DNA from: Aerococcus urinaeequi
GTDB lineage: Bacteria > Bacillota > Bacilli > Lactobacillales > Aerococcaceae
Assembly (NCBI RefSeq): GCF_001543205.1
Contig: NZ_CP014162.1
Coordinates: 744,001-808,000, forward strand
DNA length: 64,000 bases
Reading direction: 5' to 3'
Each line of letters starts with the position of its first letter. Position 1 is the stretch's first letter. Shown here piece after piece: positions 7,033 to 60,117 of this stretch. The translations under genes and the position numbers were made by a program. The notes beneath the pieces were generated by a model that saw only the letters and a list, made by a program, of their open reading frames with translations, ran no database searches and was not told the origin of the DNA.

Positions 7033-7290
7033 ATTCGACTAGGTCGGCTCTCGCACCCTAGTCGGGTTCGAGCCTCCAGACAGGGCTGCGTTTCAGCTTA
7101 AGCTGTAGCTGACTTCGCCAACTACTGCCTTAAACTTCCAACGTTCCTGTCTGAGCGTCGGCTCTCGCACCCTTCTTAGTCGAGCTCAAAATGTCAGGAT
7201 CGTGCCGCTTCAGACATGAAGTGTGTGATGTACCATCACACTTATGTCTTCCACCGTTACGAGTCTAAGCGACATTTCTCACATCCTTCA
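7033..7290 (-). repeat. intergenic structured repeat, copy 1 (double)
   Basis: This is the largest copy of a dispersed element family. Read on the minus strand it begins GGATGTGAG four bases after the stop codon of the YvlD-like gene. It contains a hairpin with GTGTGATG/CATCACAC arms, then CTGAAGCGG, then GAGCTCGACTAA, and then a second unit starting AGGGTGCGAGAG that ends with CGAACCCGACTAGGGTG. Other copies are at 33915, 36199, 38921, 42252, 45628 and 60001. The stretch fills the gap between the operon and its terminator, and no credible ORF is present. Confidence 0.7.
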
Positions 7291-32478: not shown

Positions 32479-32583
32479 ACTATTCATAATTTTACTCAAA
32501 TTCGCTTCAATAAATCACCTTGCATTTTCAAGATGATTGGAGGACAATATATTTGTAAACCCTTACAAAACGGAGGTTCTAAT

Positions 32584-33912
32584 ATGGAAGTTGAAAAACA
32601 AATTGCAGACAAGTATTTGAAGACATACACGGTGGAAAAAGAGCCCGGATCTGCCTCCTTAATCGCCTTCCCTACTTCAACTGAAGAAGTGGTCGCATTT
32701 ATTAAAGATGCCAACGCGAGAAAGCAACCAACAATTACTATTGGGAGCCAAACTGGTTTAACAAGCGCAACCTACCCAATCAACCATGCTTGGTTATTGA
32801 GTATGGAGAAAATGAATAAAATTCTTTCACTAGATGAACAAACCCTGACTTTAAATGTTCAAGCAGGTGTAACCTTATTCCAAATCCGTGATTATCTAGC
32901 AAATACACCTTATTTCTATGCCCCTGACCCTGGTAATAAGAATGCTTCAGTAGGGGGGAATGCCTCTACAAATGCTGGTGGTATGCGCGCTATCAAATAT
33001 GGTGTAACCCGTGATAATATCCGTGGTTATGACGTAGTATTGGCTAACGGTGATTTGATTCACGTTGGATCCTTAAATAAAAAAGATGCAACAGCTTACG
33101 ATTTGAAAGACCTATTTATCGGTGCTGAAGGTACACTCGGGGTGATCACAGAGTTACAATTGAAATTAACACCACGTCCAGCTTTCGAGAAATCATTAAT
33201 CCTTGGCTTTAATTCATTAGACGGTGTGTCAGACGCAATTTTTGAAGTCGTAAAATCACCTGTTCAACCTATCGCCTTAGAACTTTTGGAAGAATCTGGT
33301 ATCCACTATTCTGAACAATTTATTAATAAGAAAATGCCTGAGGTTCATGGTGAAGCCTTCTTATTGGCAACCGTAGCAGACAATGCAGCAGACGGGTTAG
33401 CCTTCCAGCTTGAAGCCATTCAAGCCCTTGGGAAAAAGGCTGGTGCAATTGAAGCGCGCGAACTTTCTGACGATGAAGCCAGCGAAATGTGGGCCATCCG
33501 TGATAATATCTTGAACGGTATCGTTTCTAAAGGTGACTGGAAAATGTATGACCCGGTTGTACCTAACCACTTGTTTACAGACTTAGTGAAGGAAGGTAAA
33601 CGTTTAGGCGATAAATATAATGTCCAAACTGGATTCTTCGGCCATGCTGGAGATGGCAACATTCATATTTGTATCTTACGTGACGACCAAGATGATGAAA
33701 CGTGGGAACAAATTAAACATGACTATGAAAATGATTTATTCCCATATGTTGCTGAACAAGGTGGCTTATTATCTGCAGAACACGGTGTAGGTTTAGAGAA
33801 AAAAGCCTATCTACCTTACTTCAAAGACGAAGCATATATGGCAGTATTGAAGTCCATCAAACAAGCCATGGATCCAAATAACATCTTGAACCCAGGAAAA
33901 ATGTTTGATTAA
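32584..33912 (+). CDS. FAD-binding oxidase, GlcD family (glycolate/D-lactate oxidase-like)
   Basis: A flavoprotein of the VAO/PCMH family that oxidises 2-hydroxy acids such as D-lactate or glycolate. Seen: the FAD-binding PP-loop TITIGSQTGLTSATYP, DPGNKNASVGGNASTNAGG, and IGAEGTLGVITELQLKL, then the C-terminal FAD-oxidase domain with GHAGDGNIHI and AEHGVGLEKKAYL, which hold the active-site His residues. The start was set at ATG 32584 behind ACGGAGG. At 442 aa it is single-subunit size. The exact substrate cannot be read from sequence; the Rex-like palindrome upstream of yigZ would suit an NADH/lactate-linked role. Confidence 0.85.
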   Translation: MEVEKQIADKYLKTYTVEKEPGSASLIAFPTSTEEVVAFIKDANARKQPTITIGSQTGLTSATYPINHAWLLSMEKMNKILSLDEQTLTLNVQAGVTLFQIRDYLANTPYFYAPDPGNKNASVGGNASTNAGGMRAIKYGVTRDNIRGYDVVLANGDLIHVGSLNKKDATAYDLKDLFIGAEGTLGVITELQLKLTPRPAFEKSLILGFNSLDGVSDAIFEVVKSPVQPIALELLEESGIHYSEQFINKKMPEVHGEAFLLATVADNAADGLAFQLEAIQALGKKAGAIEARELSDDEASEMWAIRDNILNGIVSKGDWKMYDPVVPNHLFTDLVKEGKRLGDKYNVQTGFFGHAGDGNIHICILRDDQDDETWEQIKHDYENDLFPYVAEQGGLLSAEHGVGLEKKAYLPYFKDEAYMAVLKSIKQAMDPNNILNPGKMFD

Positions 33913-33914
33913 AC

Positions 33915-34033
33915 AGGATGTGAGACAGGGCGTCCAGATAGGAGACAATGGAAGAATAGTGCCGTGGCACACAAAGTGTGACGCAAACTATTCTGAAGTG
34001 GATACCTATCTGCCCTGACGAGCTCAACTTCAA
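33915..34033 (+). repeat. intergenic structured repeat, copy 2
   Basis: Begins AGGATGTGAGAC three bases after the glcD stop. It contains AGAATAGT...ACTATTCT with an inner CACAAAGTGTG stem, and ends CTGAAGTGG...CTGCCCTGACGAGCTCAACTT. The last 36 bases match copy 4 (38921-39011, minus strand) at all but a few positions. Confidence 0.7.
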
Positions 34034-34075
34034 AGCAAACGTAATGTTTAGGAGGTAGCCTTCGGCTTCCACATA

Positions 34076-34216
34076 CCTATCACTGCCTTAAAAGCAGTGG
34101 GACCGCCCTTAGAAAATTTTTCTAAGGGCTTTTCTGACGACTCATTCTGTAAGGGGTACCCCCTAACAGAATGATGTGGGTCAGAAATCCTTGTTCCACT
34201 GCTAAGGCGTGCTAGG
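34076..34216. repeat. 141-bp palindromic element with inverted ends
   Basis: The left end reads CCTATCACTGCCTTA then AAAGCAGTGG. The complement of the right end reads CCTAGCACGCCTTA then GCAGTGG. Inside are nested stems: a terminator-like GCCCTTAG/CTAAGGGC (34105-34129), TTTCTGAC (34131) with GTCAGAAA (34180), and CATTCTGT/ACAGAATG (34143-34173). There is no ORF. It could be a MITE-like relic or a large structured 3' UTR of glcD. The remaining 34217-34313 is AT-rich and shows nothing I recognise. Confidence 0.55.
34105..34129 (+). terminator. terminator after glcD
   Basis: GCCCTTAG AAAATTTTT CTAAGGGC is followed by TTTTC on the plus strand. It is the probable end of the glcD transcript, about 190 bp past the stop and after repeat copy 2. 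Confidence 0.65.
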
Positions 34217-34313
34217 TAATTCCAGCCCCTGGCTTGTATATTTTAGAATATAATTGCTATTCAATTCTAATCAATAGACTATTTAGTTTTAAGTTTATTT
34301 GTATTTCAAATAG

Positions 34314-34346
34314 AAAACGCCCTACAATTTTGTGTAAGGCGTTTTT
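34314..34346 (-). terminator. terminator after the sirtuin gene
   Basis: AAAACGCCCTACA...TGTAAGGCGTTTT forms a stem with A and T runs on both sides. It lies 17 bp past the sirtuin stop and may work in both directions. Confidence 0.75.
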
Positions 34347-34362
34347 TCTTGAATATAATGAT

Positions 34363-35094
34363 TTAACTCAGTTGGCTAAAGACGTTTTCAATAGTGTCTT
34401 CAAATACTAAGGCATCGTGATATGGAATTTGAAGTGGTGATTTGTTTACTACAGTTAGATATTGTCCTCGGAAGTAGTTTAAGAAGCCGGCTGCTGGATA
34501 AACGACTAGACTTGTTCCCAAGATAACTAACAAATCAGCTTGGCGGATTTTATCCACTGCTCCATTCACTACATCTTGATCTAATTGTTCTTGGTATAAG
34601 ACAATATTTGGTCTAACAATGCCTTGATCAATTGGGCAGCGCGGAATACCATCTTGGTCTAGTTGAAGTTCTTCTAACTTATAATGACGGCCACATGAGA
34701 CACAATAATTATCTAACGTACTGCCGTGTAATTCATAAACAGCTGATGAACCAGCTTTTTGGTGCAGACCGTCTATATTTTGCGTAACCACAGAAACATC
34801 TTTACCAGACCCTTCTAAGTTAGCGATGAATTCATGCCCTGCATTGGGTTTAGCTTCTGTATAAACTAATTTATCAAAGTGATAAGCAAAGTATTCTTTT
34901 GGATGTTGCGTAAAGAAATGATGTGAGACCACTTCTTCTGGACTATAAGTCCCTCCTAGATCTTCCATAAAAAGACCATTCGCTGACCGGAAATCAGGGA
35001 TACCAGATGCTGTAGACATTCCCGCTCCTGTGAAAAAGACAATACGTTGACTATCTTGAATTTGTTGTTTGAATTGTTGGATTTTTTCGCTCAT
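34363..35094 (-). CDS. cobB: NAD-dependent protein deacylase (sirtuin)
   Basis: A Sir2-family enzyme that removes acyl groups from lysines using NAD. Seen: GAGMSTASGIPDFRS (residues 23-37), TQNIDGLHQKAG (104-115), catalytic His123 in ELHGS, and RPNIVLYQE. The zinc module is unusual: Cys131 and Cys134 (CVSC) are present and Cys153 is present, but the fourth ligand position is Asp156 (CPID instead of CPxC). The DNA at this place reads TGC CCA ATT GAT and is unambiguous. At 243 aa it is normal. It is near the NAD genes nadE and pncB but not in their operon. Confidence 0.88.
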   Translation of the reverse strand: MSEKIQQFKQQIQDSQRIVFFTGAGMSTASGIPDFRSANGLFMEDLGGTYSPEEVVSHHFFTQHPKEYFAYHFDKLVYTEAKPNAGHEFIANLEGSGKDVSVVTQNIDGLHQKAGSSAVYELHGSTLDNYCVSCGRHYKLEELQLDQDGIPRCPIDQGIVRPNIVLYQEQLDQDVVNGAVDKIRQADLLVILGTSLVVYPAAGFLNYFRGQYLTVVNKSPLQIPYHDALVFEDTIENVFSQLS

Positions 35095-35245
35095 GCTAGT
35101 CCTCCTTTATATAATTCTTTACTTATTCTAACATGACCAAATTTTTCATGCGAAATATCGTACATTAAAGCCTTGAGCAATCTGATTGCTTATAAGTTTG
35201 GATTTAACTAATATATAGACTGACATAATAAAAAAGGAGAACACT

Positions 35246-35956
35246 ATGCAAATTGAATTTTTCCACGATGTGATTTGCTCATTTTGTTTCCCCATGTCTA
35301 ATCGCATGCGGAAAATCGTTAGTAAATATAATAACATCGACGTGGTCCACCGATCTTTCGCTTTAGGTTGGGAACCAGATCACTTTATCCAAATGTTTGG
35401 GTCACGTGAAGCCGTTAAACCTGAAGTGTTAACTCACTGGGAACAAGCTAATCAAAATGATGATGACCACCGCTTTAACATAGAGGGAATGCGTGAAACC
35501 GACTTTAACTTCCCAACTTCAAAAAATGGTTTAAGAGCAGCAAAAGCCGCTGGTATTTTAGGCGGGCAAGATGCTTACTGGGATGCTTTTGATGCTATCC
35601 AAAATGCTCTATTCGTTGAAAATAAAAATATCGAAGAATTCGAAACTTTAAAAGCTGCTATAGCGACTACTAATACCGACCTTGACCAATGGGTAGAACA
35701 ATACGAGAAAGCTGAAACAGAAGAAGCTGTTTTACAAGATCTAGCGACCGTTCAAGCTTACGGTATTCAAGGTGCGCCAGCTTTAGTGATCAACCAAAAA
35801 TATTTGATTTCAGGTGCACAACCTACTGAAGTAATCGAGAACCAGCTAAAACAAATTGCTGAAGAAGAAGGTCAACCATTAACACCAAAACTACAAACCC
35901 TTGGTGGTCCTGGAATGGCTTGTAATTTCGTAGATGGTCAATGGATCTGTGACTAA
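35246..35956 (+). CDS. DsbA/FrnE-family thiol oxidoreductase
   Basis: A thioredoxin-fold protein of the FrnE-like DsbA branch. Seen: MQIEFFHDVICSFC with the redox pair Cys11-Ser-Phe-Cys14, a central helical insertion, and the cis-Pro region QGAPALVINQKYLISGAQP. There is no signal peptide, so it is cytosolic, as FrnE proteins usually are. It has 236 aa, and a C-terminal tail contains one extra Cys pair (GMACNFVDGQWICD). The RBS AAAGGAG precedes ATG. It is divergent from the sirtuin gene. The substrate is unknown. Confidence 0.85.
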   Translation: MQIEFFHDVICSFCFPMSNRMRKIVSKYNNIDVVHRSFALGWEPDHFIQMFGSREAVKPEVLTHWEQANQNDDDHRFNIEGMRETDFNFPTSKNGLRAAKAAGILGGQDAYWDAFDAIQNALFVENKNIEEFETLKAAIATTNTDLDQWVEQYEKAETEEAVLQDLATVQAYGIQGAPALVINQKYLISGAQPTEVIENQLKQIAEEEGQPLTPKLQTLGGPGMACNFVDGQWICD

Positions 35957-36126
35957 ACTTTCTTTCAATGAGATGCAGTATGAGATTAGCAGAATATGCT
36001 TAGGGAAAGTTTTAGCAAAAAAATATGAGTCCTAGATAGGTATTTTTAAACATTTCACCATAACAGCGGTAATTCTTAGAAAAGTATAAAATGAATCTAA
36101 CAATTTCACCCGTGAAACATAATAGA

Positions 36127-36166
36127 AAAATAGCCTTTGTGAACAGTAAAATCACAGAGGCTATTT
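36127..36166. terminator. bidirectional terminator between the FrnE-like gene and nadE
   Basis: AAAATAGCCTTTGTGA pairs with TCACAGAGGCTATTTT. It has A/T runs on both flanks, suiting the two converging genes. The region 35957-36126 before it is AT-rich and shows no gene. Confidence 0.8.
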
Positions 36167-36198
36167 TGTATATATAAGTTAATGTCTTTTAGTCTTTT

Positions 36199-36363
36199 GA
36201 CTCGGCTCTCGCATCCTATAAAGTTGAGCTCGTACTTCGCATCCTATTTAGTCGGGTTCATTCGACCAGCTCAAGTCCGCTTCAGACTATATTGCATCAC
36301 ACTCGTGTGATACGGCTATAGTCTTCCATCGTTATTGAGCTTAACGGTCTCACTCACACCCTA
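36199..36363 (-). repeat. intergenic structured repeat, copy 3
   Basis: On the minus strand the element starts TAGGGTGTGAG, and its TAG is the stop codon of nadE. It continues GACCGTTAAGCTCAA, then a hairpin with ATCACAC/GTGTGAT arms, TCTGAAGCGGA, ACCCGACTAAATAGGATGCGA and GAGCTCAACT. It lies between the nadE stop and the terminator. Confidence 0.72.
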
Positions 36364-37191
36364 TTTCTTCCACCATTCATCATAAACGGTGATTGGTAAT
36401 TCACGTTTGTGTTGGGTTTTTAGGTACCAGTTTTCGATTTTTTCGGCTGCGTCTGTTGAGACGTCTTTGCCTTCTAAGTAAGCATCGATGTCTTGGTAGG
36501 TTACACCTAGGGCTACTTCGTCGGCTAAGCCTGGGCGGTCTTCTTCTAAGTCAGCTGTTGGTACCTTAACGTATAAATGTTCTGGGGCATCTAAATATTC
36601 AAGGATAGCACGTCCTTGACGTTTATTTAACCGCCAGATAGGCAGGATATCTGCTGCGCCATCACCGAACTTGGTGTAGAAGCCTGTCACCGATTCAGCA
36701 GCATGGTCTGTCCCTACCACGACACCTGCATTTTCACCTGCGATTGCATATTGTACCAACATCCGTTGGCGCGCTTTGATATTTCCTTTATTGAAGTCAG
36801 AAATGGTAAGTCCACCCTTTTCCAATTGTTCAACGGTAGCATCAACAGCTGGCTTGATGTTGACGCGTACAGTTTGGTCCGCAGCCATGAAATCTATAGC
36901 GTCCATAGCATCAGCTTCATCGGCTTGGTTGCCGTAAGGAAGACGGACTGCGATGAATTGGTATTTATCATCACCAGTTTCTTCGCGTATTTCAGTCATA
37001 GCCATTTGGCATAATTTACCAGCTAGGGTTGAATCTTGCCCACCAGAAATTCCCAATACTAAGGTTTTTAGAAATGGATACTTGTGAAAGTATGCCTTGA
37101 TGAAATCAATGGTACGTCTGATTTCTGCTTCTGGATTAATACTAGGTGCTACTTTTAAGGCATTTATAATTTCTTCTTGTAATGGACGCAT
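36361..37191 (-). CDS. nadE: NH3-dependent NAD synthetase
   Basis: Amidates nicotinic acid adenine dinucleotide to NAD using ATP and ammonia. Seen: the PP-loop SGGQDS at residues 49-54, [18 protein letters not shown] with the following LNKRQGR, and the C-terminal KREL-type end. The start was moved to ATG 37191 (MRPLQEE), because GGGGAGG is 5 nt upstream; the longer frame runs into pncB. The 276 aa matches the E. coli-type, glutaminase-free enzyme. It lies 34 bp after pncB, so the pair makes NAD from nicotinate. The TAG stop is supplied by the end of an intergenic repeat. Confidence 0.95.
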
Positions 37192-37225
37192 GGTATCCTC
37201 CCCTTTTATTGCTTTATTCATCAAC

Positions 37226-38719
37226 TTAGTCTTCGTTGTCACCGTTTAAATCGAATTCTTTAAATTCTTCATTGATGCGTTCACGAATTTCAGCGATTGA
37301 ATTCATTTTTAAATCATATAATTCTTGTGATAAATCAACTGGGTATGGCTCTGGATTCAACATACGACGGTATTCTGACCATAAGGCATCCAAGTGCTCA
37401 CGTGAGAAATTACGAACTGTTTCTAGTGTTGGGATATCGTAAACTAACTCACCCTTATCAATGATGGTACTTAATAATGGACGCGCGTTGAAACGGCGAA
37501 CTGTCTTGTTAATGTAAGTATAAGTTGGATGGAACATGAAGATAGACTCAGCGTCATTAGGATCTTCATTCATGGTTGTAATATAGTCCCCTTCAGATTT
37601 ACCATCTTTCTTGCGGGTAATACGCCAAATTTGTTTCTCACCTGGTGTCGTAATTTTCTCTGGTGATGATGAAATTTTCATTGTAGGAACCATATCACCA
37701 TTTTCATCTTCGATAGCACATAATTTGTAAACAGCGCCCAACGCTGGCTGGTCAAAGGCAGTAATCAGCTGAGTACCAACGCCCCAAGCGTCAATTTTAG
37801 CGCCTTGCATCTTCAAGTTTAGAATGGTTTTCTCATCTAAATCGTTTGAGGCAGAAATGATCGCATCAGGATAGCCCGCTTCATCCAACATCTTGCGGAT
37901 ACTTGATGATAAGTAGGAAATATCGCCAGAGTCGATACGAACGCCCACAAAACGAGATTTATCTTCCATCTCATTGGCTACTTTGATCGCATTTGGTACT
38001 CCTGAACGAAGGGTATCATAAGTATCTACTAAGAATGTACATTTTTCATGGGCATTTGCATACGCTTTAAAAGCTTCATAATCACTTTGATAAGCTTGTA
38101 CCATAGCATGCGCATGGGTTCCTGAAATTGGAATACTGAATAATTTACCTGCGCGTACATTTGAGGTAGAGTCGAATCCACCAATATAAGCCGCGCGAGC
38201 TCCCCAAATAGCCGCATCCATTTCTTGGGCACGCCTTGAACCGAATTCAGCTAATGCGTCATCACCAGCAACATTCCGGATACGTGATGCTTTTGTCGCA
38301 ATTAAAGTTTGATAGTTGATAATATTTAATACTGCTGTTTCGATTAAAGTACAATCAGCTAATGACCCTTTAATTTGCATCAACGGTTCATTTGAAAAGG
38401 CAATTTCCCCTTCTTCCATTGAACGAATTGTGGCATCGAAATGGTAGTTTTTCAAGTAGTCTAAAAAATCTTCCGGATAATTTTGTGTTTCCCGTAAGTA
38501 TGCGATATCATCATCGGTAAATTGTAAATTTTGTACATATTGAATGACACGTTCTAGGCCTGCGAAAATGGCATAGCCACTTTCAAACGGATTTTTACGG
38601 AAGTATACTTCAAAAACCGCTTGTTGGTCAGCTTTCCCAGCATCCCAATAAGTCTTCATCATGTTGATTTCATATAAATCTGTATGAAGTGCCAGGCTAT
38701 CGTTGGTCGTTGTCTTCAT
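37226..38719 (-). CDS. pncB: nicotinate phosphoribosyltransferase
   Basis: First step of Preiss-Handler NAD salvage: nicotinate plus PRPP plus ATP to nicotinate mononucleotide. Seen: the N-terminal [49 protein letters not shown] with the catalytic-region His, and [12 protein letters not shown]. At 497 aa it is the long Firmicutes form. The RBS GGAGGG lies 9 nt before ATG. It is co-transcribed with nadE (34-bp gap). Together with salvage, this suggests that the cell can use exogenous niacin; de novo genes are not in this window. Confidence 0.94.
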
Positions 38720-38920: not shown

Positions 38921-39011
38921 GGTTTCACTCTTTAGTTGAGCTCGCCAGGGCAGACAGGTATCCGCTTCAGATTATGAGCGAGTTGTTGAGCTTAACGGTC
39001 TCACTCTCATC
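38921..39011 (-). repeat. intergenic structured repeat, copy 4 (short)
   Basis: On the minus strand the element starts TAGGATGAGAGTGAGACCGTTAAG and its GGATGA supplies the final Gly codon and TGA stop of the upstream gene. It then has AATCTGAAGCGGATACC and GAGCTCAACTAAAGAGTG. Most of the internal hairpin of other copies is missing. Confidence 0.68.
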
Positions 39012-40413
39012 CTATTACATCAATATTCATTTCTTCTGCTTCTTCTCTTGTTACTGTTGGTTTTTCGTCTTCGTCAATTCCTGATGAGGATACTTTGTCG
39101 AAGAGGATTTTAATGGTTTGTAATAAAATCTTGAAGTCTAAGAACATTGAATACTGTTTGATATAAATTAGGTCAAAGTTCAATTTAGAGTTAAAGTCTG
39201 TGGCATATTTACCGTAGACTTGTGCGTAACCCGTGATACCTGCTTGTACGTTATGACGTAAGTAGTAATGTGGGTTTTCTTCTTGGAATTGGTTAACGAA
39301 GAATGGTCGCTCTGGACGTGGTCCAATCATGGACATATCTCCGCGTAACACATTCAACAACTGTGGCAATTCATCGATACGCAAGGCACGAATATATTTA
39401 CCAACTGTTGTGACACGTGCGTCATTTTTCGTTGCAATCATTGGACCAGATTTTACTTCGGCATCCGTTGTCATAGAACGGAATTTCAAGATATCAAACT
39501 CTTCGCCACCTTTAGTAATACGCACTTGGCGGTAGAATACTGGACCTTTAGAAGTTAATTTAATAATAATTGCTGTAATTAACATAATTGGTGATGCTAA
39601 GATTAAACCAATTAATGCCATCATAATATCTAATCCCCGTTTGATCAACGCTTGGTCCGCTGGAATTGCGAAGTCTGAGGTTTCAATAATAGATTCATCT
39701 TCAAAATTCATAATATTTGGATTTACCATTACTAGGTTTTCAAATTTAGAATTTAAGAATAGTTTTTTATTGGCACGCATCAATAAGTCATAGATTTTTA
39801 GTTTTTCACTTTCATCAATTTGCGATGCAAGATATACAATATCATACTCATCTAAACGACTCTTCACATTGCGGTAGTAATCTTCTAACACCACGTGTGT
39901 CACGATATGACGAGTACTTTTTGAGTTTTTGAAATTATATATTGCTGGAAAAACAGCTTCTTCAGATCCAACAATCATTACACGTTTTGTAGATGCATAG
40001 CGTCGATAAATATCGAAAACTAAGGCTCTAAAAACATAAAGCATGATTACACTAATCGCAAAATCAATCAAGACGACTGAACGCGGAAAGGCTAGCCATC
40101 TACCAGCAAAACTTAAAACCATAGCAACAACTGCTAATATTCCTTGACTGATGATGGTAATGAAGAAGAGGTCGCCTTTGGTTTTATCATAAAGGATATA
40201 AACCCCAAATAAAATATTGATAAATACAAAGATAATTAATATCCAACCAATTGCCCCTTGGAAAGCTTCATAGTTTTTCAAAGGTACATATCGACCATAC
40301 CGCAAAAAGAATGAAACAAGATAAGAAAGGAACAAGATTAACGCTTCTGTCGCCGCGATAACCACGCGGTACCAGTTCGTCCATTCTCCGTTTTTTTGCA
40401 TTTTTTCACCCAT
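39007..40413 (-). CDS. polyprenyl glycosylphosphotransferase (sugar transferase)
   Basis: A membrane enzyme that loads the first sugar phosphate onto undecaprenyl phosphate to begin a polysaccharide or glycan. Seen: four or five N-terminal helices (to about residue 135), a nucleotide-binding-like middle (RVMIVGSEEA), and a C-terminal bacterial sugar transferase domain with KRGLDIMMALIGLILASP, KGPVFYRQVRITKGG, KFRSM, RIDELPQLLNVLRGDMSMIGPRPERP and GITGYAQVYG. At 468 aa it is CpsE/WbaP-like. It stands alone with no capsule operon adjacent. The start is uncertain: ATG 40413 or an ATG four codons later, neither with a strong RBS. Confidence 0.88.
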   Translation of the reverse strand: MGEKMQKNGEWTNWYRVVIAATEALILFLSYLVSFFLRYGRYVPLKNYEAFQGAIGWILIIFVFINILFGVYILYDKTKGDLFFITIISQGILAVVAMVLSFAGRWLAFPRSVVLIDFAISVIMLYVFRALVFDIYRRYASTKRVMIVGSEEAVFPAIYNFKNSKSTRHIVTHVVLEDYYRNVKSRLDEYDIVYLASQIDESEKLKIYDLLMRANKKLFLNSKFENLVMVNPNIMNFEDESIIETSDFAIPADQALIKRGLDIMMALIGLILASPIMLITAIIIKLTSKGPVFYRQVRITKGGEEFDILKFRSMTTDAEVKSGPMIATKNDARVTTVGKYIRALRIDELPQLLNVLRGDMSMIGPRPERPFFVNQFQEENPHYYLRHNVQAGITGYAQVYGKYATDFNSKLNFDLIYIKQYSMFLDFKILLQTIKILFDKVSSSGIDEDEKPTVTREEAEEMNIDVIG

Positions 40414-42251: not shown

Positions 42252-42470
42252 ATAGGGTGTGAGCTTTGGCGCTCAGGCAGGTGGCTTCTAACGCATTTAA
42301 GCGAGTTAGTGCTAAAGCACCGACTCGCTCATAAACTGGAGGGAATATGCCGTAGCAATTTTACTTGCTGCAAATATTCCTGAAGTGGAGACCGGACTGC
42401 CAAAGCGAACCCGACTAAACAGGGTGTGAGAATCGAACCCGACTAAACAGGGTGTGAGAGTCTACGTAAA
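42252..42470 (+). repeat. intergenic structured repeat, copy 5
   Basis: In the plus orientation it starts AGGGTGTGAGCTTTGGCGCTCAGG, contains GAATATGCCGTAGCAA...TTGCTGC...ATATTCCTGAAGTGGA, and ends in two tandem 26-bp copies (42406-42431 and 42434-42459) of CGAACCCGACTAAACAGG plus GTGTGAGA. It occupies most of the 533-bp gap 42108-42640. The rest holds the promoter region of the Ser-rich gene and the transporter terminator. Confidence 0.7.
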
Positions 42471-44225: not shown

Positions 44226-44500
44226 AAAAAAATCCCCACCTCTATAACAGAGGCGGAGATCCACGGTACCACTCTAATTTTAGGGGTAGCTTTCACTGCC
44301 CCTTACTTGAAATGGTAACGTCATTAGCGAAATGACCTACTATCTATCGTTCAGTCACTTTTCTCAACAATGCGGTTCAATTATCTATTCTGTAAGGCCT
44401 CACACCAACACCTCTCGCTACACCAGTCGATAATTTACTCTTTGTTTCATTGAATTTTTATTAAAATAGTATGTGGTTATACCACGTCCACTACATTATA
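44226..44500 (-). promoter_or_regulatory. T-box riboswitch (Arg, CGC specifier) with promoter
   Basis: Promoter TTGACA (44519-44524) with an 18-bp spacer and TATAAT (44495-44500) precedes the leader. Stem I has AATTATC/GATAATT and the GAGTA element opposite TGAACCGCATT; the specifier reads as CGC followed by the conserved A. The T-box sequence AGAGTGGTACCGTGG lies at 44261-44275. The terminator CCGCCTCT...AGAGGTGGGG with T7 is at 44234-44256. Uncharged tRNA-Arg should stabilise the antiterminator and turn on the transporter. UGGU in the T-box predicts an A discriminator base. Specifier choice is inferred. Confidence 0.88.
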
Positions 44501-45627: not shown

Positions 45628-45756
45628 ACTTAGTTGATATCTGGCTCGCCAAGTCAGACTTGGCCGACATTTCACAAAATGCTCCAATTACTTCCAGTAA
45701 TTGTTCGGCTTTTGATCCAACGCGGTGCAAGTCTTAACGGCTTGTCTCGCACTTAG
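45628..45756 (-). repeat. intergenic structured repeat, copy 6
   Basis: Starts CTAAGTGCGAGACAAGCCGTTAAG directly after the argG TAA. It contains AATTACTGGAAGTAATT, GTCGGCCAAGTCTGACTTGG and ATATCAACTAAGTGCGAC. It forms a subfamily with copy 7 (60001-60117): both share AGTCAGA and the AATTACTG/TAGGTAATT-type hairpin. Confidence 0.68.
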
Positions 45757-48807: not shown

Positions 48808-49119
48808 CCGCCCCTTCAAATGAAGAGGCGGTTAATATCCACGGTACCACTCTACTGTTGACAAAAATACATCAACGCTTGATGACTTAACGCGCCTAAC
48901 GAATTGAGCTACTTTTATTATCTAATTAGCTTACTTCACTCAATTATCTCAGCAATGCGGTTCACAATTCTCCTGACATAGACCTTCCACCAATCGTCTA
49001 CTCGCTTTAGACAGTACCCTTGTTACTCTTTGCCTCTATGATTTAATATTCAATTCTCATAAAAAAATGACATCTATCATTGTTTTTTAAGTTTTTATCA
49101 TTTTCTTTTAATCATTCTA
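48808..49119 (-). promoter_or_regulatory. T-box riboswitch (Arg, CGC specifier), full unit of tandem, with promoter
   Basis: Promoter TTGACT (49137-49142), 17-bp spacer, TAGAAT (49114-49119). The leader has AAAGAGTAACAA, Stem I and TGTGAACCGCATTGCTGAG, with the specifier read as CGC plus A exactly as in the leader at 44226. T-box AGAGTGGTACCGTGG lies at 48839-48853 and the terminator CCGCCTCTTCATTTGAAG plus GGGCGG with T6 at 48808-48831. It controls the transporter-argG operon jointly with the partial unit downstream. This and the partial unit fill the 559-bp gap 48620-49178. Confidence 0.88.
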
Positions 49120-60000: not shown

Positions 60001-60117
60001 TATCTGGTTCCAAAAGTCAGAATTATCCGACGCTTCCCAAAATACTCTAATTACCTACAGTAATAGTTCTACTCTTGGTCTAGCGCGTATATTCTAAGCG
60101 ACTTTTGTCTCACCTCA
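60001..60117 (-). repeat. intergenic structured repeat, copy 7
   Basis: On the minus strand it begins GGTGAGACAAAAGTCGCTTAG, contains ATTACTGTAGGTAAT and ends AATTCTGACTTTTGGAACCAGATA. It matches copy 6 in order and spacing. It lies between the attenuator and the thiolase RBS, and is one of two copies not directly behind a stop codon. Confidence 0.62.

Follow-up and report, generated by a model that had tools for sequence, protein, structure and literature searches.

A 64,000-nucleotide (nt) stretch of the Aerococcus urinaeequi genome (contig NZ_CP014162.1, positions 744,001 to 808,000, hereafter the window) carries, at seven sites, copies of a short intergenic repeat whose hairpin fold is kept by compensatory change. 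These copies probably represent a non-autonomous, structure-recognised mobile element of the order Lactobacillales that is related to the enterococcal EFAR/Efa-1 repeats. In Aerococcus it takes the form of a new variant that has one hairpin, forms head-to-tail arrays and lies flush with stop codons. We regard the family as real, mobile, structure-selected and partly known; our statements on how it moves, and on any gain to the host, are inferences.

The consensus unit spans 116 positions and folds into one long imperfect hairpin. Its base consists of the closing pairs 2-116 and 3-115, through which the element ends form a short imperfect inverted repeat, followed by pairs 7-110 and 8-109 and the tandem G9.A108/A10.G107. 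The lower part comprises the helix 11-18/99-106, a G-Y-U-Y bulge, the helix 23-29/92-98 and pairs 33-35/85-87, above which an asymmetric loop places U36 G37 G38 A39 opposite G82 A83 A84. The helix 40-46/75-81, a small internal loop and the apical helix 51-59/63-71 complete the structure. Nearly any sequence is allowed in the helices, and the near-fixed elements are unpaired: the basal tandem G.A, the bulge C-GYUY-AG/CUG and the asymmetric loop UGGA/GAA. Two pairs near the base are weak, of which 4-114 (paired in only 16 of 92 alignment rows) was retained in the model and 5-112 (49 of 92) was omitted.

An earlier reading of the window from its letters alone (the sequence-only reading) had proposed that the hairpin arms differ between copies yet stay complementary, and had named compensatory changes as the test. 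In eight copies aligned with MAFFT, 90.1% of the pair cells hold standard pairs and both sides have changed in 22 of 31 pairs, values that none of 500 shuffles reached; the covariation score is 0.548 compared to 0.221 in shuffled alignments. Among 92 distinct rows, both sides have changed in all 39 pairs, 88.5% of the pair cells are paired (57% in shuffles), and covariation rises to 0.754, against 0.198 when shuffled and at most 0.132 when slid. For a set of more distant sequences, comprising 25 distinct rows whose genomes belong to four family codes, the score is 0.735 versus 0.206, with 90.3% paired. The eight-copy alignment (A1) was made independently of any model, whereas alignments A2-A4 were fitted to one, which favours that model's structure.

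The unpaired positions are more conserved than the paired ones (0.94 versus 0.54 bits in 60 sequences obtained by clustering at 80%), so the sequence signal is carried more by loops than by stems. On the strand as drawn, G-U pairs outnumber A-C mismatches by 99 to 30 in the clustered set with pairs 4-114 and 5-112 left out, and by 153 to 92 in the unclustered set with both weak pairs counted. As a result of this excess, one strand looks to be the functional, structured one.

Rfam returned no match over any element in the window at the gathering score, and none over the elements in 2.5 kb of the window and 11 relative loci at a relaxed E-value. A likeness to 5S rRNA, suggested by the common words CGATGG and GTTAAGCTC, was dropped, as cmscan gave no 5S match at a relaxed E-value.

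Members of the family in the window

Two models were used: R1, built from the eight copies of alignment A1, which had been picked for better conservation, and R2, built from 95 aligned copies (alignment A3). All seven sites named in the sequence-only reading hold members, eight units in total by R1 and R2 together, with several boundaries and compositions corrected. R1 gives seven matches spread over six of the sites, and R2 adds 60001-60117 (minus strand, E 6.1e-12); the internally deleted copy at 38934-39014 is absent from the R2 matches at E 0.01. What had been delimited as one copy at 7033-7290 is a pair of tandem units with a stub, and parts of two other proposed copies, 36199-36249 within 36199-36363 and 42417-42470 within 42252-42470, are short stubs (left end/right end) that lack the hairpin. 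The corrected features are as follows.

33914..34029, plus strand: site A, intact unit (R1 128 bits, R2 111.5 bits)
36250..36363, minus strand: site B, intact unit (R1 111.3 bits)
36199..36249, minus strand: site B, stubs consisting of left end and right end, hairpin missing (from the sequence)
42253..42416, plus strand: site C, unit with an additional internal hairpin (R1 46.6 bits)
42417..42470, plus strand: site C, array stubs of 28 nt each (direct repeat)
7178..7288, minus strand: site D, unit 1 of the tandem pair (R1 83.9 bits)
7060..7174, minus strand: site D, unit 2 of the tandem pair (R1 82.2 bits)
7033..7059, minus strand: site D, terminal stub of the array, AGGGTGCGAG... (from the sequence)
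38934..39014, minus strand: site E, internally deleted unit (R1 23.3 bits, E 1.8e-4)
45638..45756, minus strand: site F, divergent unit (R1 35.6 bits, R2 67.2 bits)
60001..60117, minus strand: site G, divergent unit (R2 57.8 bits, not among the R1 matches)

Six of the eight units are 111-119 nt long; one measures 81 nt and another, with the extra hairpin, 164 nt. This extra hairpin (AAGCGAGT..ACTCGCT), conserved within the internal loop, marks a subfamily that comprises the window unit 42253-42416 and copies at loci L002, L012 and L006.

The proposed start of copies at stop codons holds for five of the seven sites (33914, 36363, 7288, 39014 and 45756). Site A begins 1 nt past the TAA stop of a FAD-linked oxidase gene (32533-33912), unit 1 of site D begins 2 nt past a stop codon, and site F lies 0 nt from the stop of the argininosuccinate synthase gene. 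At site B the NAD synthase gene (36361-37242) ends on the TAG with which the element itself begins, and at site E an internal TGA of the element terminates a sugar-transferase gene (39007-40413). The copies at 42253 and 60001 have no sense gene directly ahead: site C is flanked by two minus-strand genes, and site G, which is also present in three relatives, lies upstream of a thiolase gene. The companion claim, that a terminator follows the copies, stood in part. A consensus scan found same-strand terminator-like sites 42-76 nt downstream at three of the seven sites (34105-34129, plus; 7018-6978, minus; 45584-45556, minus), and a fourth, at about 36165-36124 (minus) behind site B, was recognised by eye only. 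For the remaining three, the scan listed no site close behind 38934 or 42416, and behind 60001 only a weak one about 200 nt off (59800-59781, minus).

Directly downstream of copy A lies a second dispersed structured repeat (34055-34245), which folds strongly (−93.5 kcal/mol). Similar pieces occur at three loci of the same genome (L129, L006 and L045) and, adjoining an element copy, in two other genera (L058 and L060, single genomes). The element units at L058 and L060 are of the Aerococcus type and are nested with the second repeat in the same manner, by either recent transfer or assembly contamination.

Copy number, placement and turnover

The A. urinaeequi genome is a single contig of 2,013,339 bp. 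The search for further copies that had been proposed as a check gave 53 R2 matches in it at E 0.01; R1 gave 46 at E 1, the best with E-values down to 1e-34. R1 matches were present in 41 of 149 genomes, this one included, and R2 matches in 91 of 395 sampled genomes of the Lactobacillales, covering seven family codes; across 398 genomes of the phylum, R2 matched the A. urinaeequi genome alone. In searches that spanned more than 40 genomes, no more than 24 or nine candidates were scored per genome, so that copy numbers from them are floors and weak members were missed. Two copy-rich genomes hold 55 and 51 matches at E 0.01, and others hold 81, 41 and 40 at E 1e-4. One A. agrisoli contig (L236) carries seven units head-to-tail, mostly 123 nt apart and five of them with an identical model score, an array that we read as recently expanded.

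A scan with a degenerate pattern yielded 110 stretches. The 80 of these that were listed came from Aerococcus, Trichococcus, Lacticigenium, Jeotgalibaca and Desemzia, with four labelled Streptococcus and four from outside the group; R2 matched all three of the Streptococcus-labelled stretches that were checked and none of the four outside ones. By itself, the motif CTGAAGYGGA is found in unrelated sequence as well (16 of 29 genome matches). Chance similarity of short motifs as the source of the whole family is nevertheless refuted and has a vanishingly small probability, in view of the full-length model matches with E-values reaching 1e-34 and of covariation far above that of shuffles.

Gene context was taken from longest open reading frame calls, not from annotation, and was examined for 51 units in 40 arrays drawn from the 46 R1 matches and the listed part of the R2 matches, a set that does not coincide exactly with the 53. 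The upstream gene is in sense for 28 of the 40 arrays, 21 of which have a sense stop codon at −8 to +5 nt of the element; another 11 are placed between a pair of genes running against them, one could not be assigned, and none of the 40 lies between divergent genes. The nearest antisense stop behind any array is 42 nt away. For 48 copies in three other genera, the setting is convergent in 25, same-direction in 13, antisense in eight, divergent in one and unassigned in one. Gene 3′ ends are thus favoured in this genome and in the other genera, as the claim of non-random placement relative to stop codons had it. A lack of further copies, or a lack of covariation combined with random placement, had been named as grounds for giving up the sequence-only reading; further copies, covariation and non-random placement were all found.

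Sites orthologous to those in the window were compared in three syntenic relatives (G003, G011 and G007, about 85-93% identical), where the matching intergenic places hold from zero to four units of differing subfamilies. At site D, the left half of unit 1 is fused to the right half of unit 2 in one relative, and only a stub is left in another. Three relatives have one to three full units at site E, and in three the hairpin core is missing at site F. The head-to-tail arrays of Aerococcus thus grow, shrink and recombine. Element identity was further compared with that of 120-nt flanks, some of them coding, at three orthologous sites: copies at site B (two relatives) are 98-99% identical versus 89-98% for flanks, those at site G 85-97% versus 94-99%, and those at a site designated 52.5k 94-96% versus 84-98%. 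There is no consistent slow-down of copies relative to flanks at these three sites, and selection at single loci was discarded on that account.

These data bear on the possibility that the copies are host-functional cis elements, that is, structures of the 3′ untranslated region (UTR) that serve in mRNA protection, as an RNase III site or in regulator binding and are kept for the upstream gene. We consider this unlikely. It would suit the 21 of 40 arrays that are sense-flush with stop codons, the absence of arrays within 41 nt of an antisense stop, the strand asymmetry (G-U 99, A-C 30), the fixed purine-rich loops and site B, where the element is as conserved as its flanks or more, but a role for the upstream gene fits poorly with the 11 arrays between genes that run against them, with the eight of 48 copies similarly placed elsewhere, and with orthologous sites that have no copy, another subfamily or broken fusions. 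Furthermore, element identity at sites G and 52.5k is below or between that of the flanks in nearly all comparisons. The proposed selection on structure is therefore borne out by covariation, and its source, given that copies do not evolve consistently more slowly than flanks, is better read as a recogniser or mover than as a 3′-UTR role at each gene.

Insertion sites and the search for a mover

Mobility shows in the many dispersed near-identical copies in genomes G201, G025 and G071, which mark a recent multiplication of the element in some genera; in one genome, ten units score 93.9 bits or differ from it by at most 0.4. Comparison of flanks shows that copy ends are sharp. In the three other genera the unit is 170-174 nt long in 46 of the 48 copies, those with both ends located (171-173 nt in 44), and consists of the hairpin followed by a linker and a terminator hairpin, each about 26 nt long. 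Two of the 48 copies, whose 3′ end is unclear, were left out of the flank test. In the other 46 the two flanks are complementary to each other: the score is 250.5 versus a permuted mean of 146.4 and a maximum of 188 in 5000 permutations, with many single arms being short or composed of A/T only. The predicted folds of two complete units show the hairpin and the terminator hairpin enclosed by the flanking arms.

An empty site was found in G058, at a locus orthologous to that of one G025 copy (about 80% identical, same genus code). There, a simple terminator hairpin with the lower stem GCGCGATG/CATCGCGC sits between runs of A and T. The filled site reads AAAATGCGAT|unit|ATCGCGTTTT, and its arms correspond to the lower stem of the G058 hairpin. 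Hence the unit appears, from this sequence comparison, to have replaced the tip of the terminator hairpin at the G025 site. EFAR elements are reported to enter stem-loop targets, to delete most of the target and to retain parts of its stems. Close to the G058 empty site (L344), three tandem hairpins TGCGCACTCAAATGG..GAGTGCGCA precede the terminator and are perhaps another repeat family.

In the mobile-element reading, which we prefer, some factor would recognise the folded strand (as RNA or single-stranded DNA) via the fixed purine-rich loops and would insert copies into hairpins. The requirement for recognition, and not a job at each host gene, would then preserve the fold; copies behind genes would travel in 3′ UTRs at little harm. 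A version that we regard as decidedly unlikely dispenses with both an own transposase and a fixed partner and lets long hairpins spread by taking the place of other hairpins' tips. Host hairpin processing (e.g. SbcCD-type cleavage or fork template switching) would open terminator tips, the opened terminator would be repaired by copying a folded element, and the fold with its fixed purine loops would constitute the mobility signal. If this were true, terminators throughout the genome would serve, in a whole bacterial order, as a network of docking sites.

Matching arms could also arise without selection on structure if replication switches template within long DNA hairpins, so that one arm is copied from the other; template switching can create and repair hairpins (Monttinen and Loytynoja 2022, PMC8794818). 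The complementary outer arms at many insertion sites speak for such a process. It would be expected to heal the mismatched motifs (the G.A tandem, UGGA/GAA and the GYUY bulge), which remain unpaired and conserved in 60 clustered sequences, and at one site the arms correspond to sequence present in the relative without the element. We therefore hold this explanation to be very unlikely. Template switching may contribute, but the persistence of the motifs across families speaks against it as the sole cause.

The conserved extrahelical bases, the strand asymmetry and insertion into hairpins recall the single-strand transposition or recombination substrates of known enzyme classes (REP/RAYT Y1, IS200/IS605, integron attC-like); REP sequences, for one, are recognised as single strands. 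That a known enzyme of this kind moves the element is highly improbable, since Y1_Tnp is absent from the A. urinaeequi genome and from the copy-rich genomes G010, G013, G039, G122 and G201, and since neither a target duplication nor a hairpin-adjacent tetranucleotide tag was noticed by eye at dispersed copies; no TA duplication was noticed there by eye either. Reverse transcriptase and Y1 transposase were rejected as movers, as their presence does not track copies, and the integron attC and group II intron ideas, which arose from resemblance and found no support in tests, were set aside. A 118-nt insertion in G003 between CTTAAAA and GCAGTG was initially read as entry into a 6-bp hairpin loop. 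This site sits within a second structured repeat, and as the bases concerned have other partners in the minimum-energy fold of that repeat, it lends the idea weak support.

Several results weigh against a mobile element of this kind: (i) PF01797 (Y1_Tnp) and PF00078 (RVT_1) are absent from the A. urinaeequi genome, in which integrases and other transposases were not surveyed, and by inspection both are patchy in 36 genomes and do not track copy number; (ii) there is a single clean orthologous empty site, at about 80% identity, and a second empty-site query in Trichococcus relatives gave none, the whole element-bearing 1.5-kb stretch being missing in 10 of 10; (iii) the flanks of 36 of the 40 A. 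urinaeequi arrays, those used in the test, are not complementary, with 1435 of 2000 permutations reaching the observed value; (iv) the strong preference for orientation and stop codons in Aerococcus could also mean host function; and (v) Enterococcus-labelled plasmids score low with R2, at 20-37 bits on three of four stretches with no match on the fourth. It follows from (iii) that terminator targeting is supported in the other genera and not in Aerococcus.

Elsewhere in the window, two T-box leaders pass the Rfam gathering score on the minus strand (44246-44459 and 48821-49047); the ends of the genes behind them have a common 300-nt stretch that is 75% identical.

Comparison with known repeats

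BOX and RUP of Streptococcus pneumoniae, with which the sequence-only reading drew a parallel, are likewise small dispersed intergenic repeats of Firmicutes and were compared by description only. BOX is modular. RUP is linked to the ends of IS630-Spn1 and to TA targets (PMC2229807), and no such ends were noticed in the present element, again by description only. YPAL/RU-2 of Yersinia resembles it in length (about 168 bp), internal inverted repeats and targets that span or adjoin dyad symmetry, but it makes target duplications of 3-26 bp and belongs to a different host group (Delihas, PMC2229807); this comparison, too, is by description only. REP/BIME and the GTAG- and CGTC-tagged palindromes are extragenic too, but measure 20-40 bp (PMC3733652) compared to about 116 nt here; furthermore, PF01797, the domain of the Y1 transposase that partners REP, is missing from a genome with 53 copies.

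The closest likeness is to the enterococcal repeats. According to Petrillo et al. 2008 (PMC2267715), Efa-1 of Enterococcus faecalis is 163 nt long and intergenic, with 65 copies and two adjacent stem-loops. EFAR elements in enterococci are named among miniature elements in a 2013 paper (PMC3733652), which cites De Gregorio et al. 2009; EFAR and Efa-1 would seem to be one repeat. By description, the units of the three other genera resemble Efa-1, being two-hairpin structures of 170-174 nt compared to 163 nt. The EFAR/Efa-1 size (about 163-170 bp) is thus found in those genera and not in the window, and two adjacent stem-loops are found in the two folded units from those genera and in an E. faecalis-labelled plasmid copy behind groEL (L333; weak R2 match, 23 bits), but not in the window copies. 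Unlike EFAR/Efa-1, the Aerococcus units have no second hairpin, form head-to-tail arrays, often lie at stop codons and lack flank palindromes. We therefore describe the family as EFAR-related in the wide sense and do not file the Aerococcus copies as EFAR, because the size and two-hairpin features fail.

Copies matching R2 occur in genomes of family code f3, several of them next to a second hairpin, and blastn matches of two such copies were mainly to enterococcal plasmids (107 of 110 and 63 of 76 records). Enterococcus-type queries matched plasmids and two Listeria phage records, whereas copy A as query gave nothing on plasmids and a G126 copy nothing on plasmids or phages. By R2, copies on E. 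faecium DO plasmids score 35-37 bits; of the E. faecalis-labelled plasmid copies, one scores 23 bits and another has no match.

Our literature search, with coverage mostly outside subscription journals, found such repeats described neither in Aerococcus nor in its relatives. The present models make a family without an Rfam entry searchable, point to terminator-hairpin insertion in further genera and offer a clean system for asking by what means miniature elements of bacteria move when no transposase is known for them. They also carry a warning: where a bacterial 3′ UTR covaries strongly, the cause can be a mobile element and not a host regulator. Considering the range covered here, seven family codes of the order versus enterococci alone for EFAR/Efa-1, the seemingly isolated enterococcal repeats become part, subject to a direct alignment with the EFAR copies in print, of a family that spans the order and has a defined fold with covariation.

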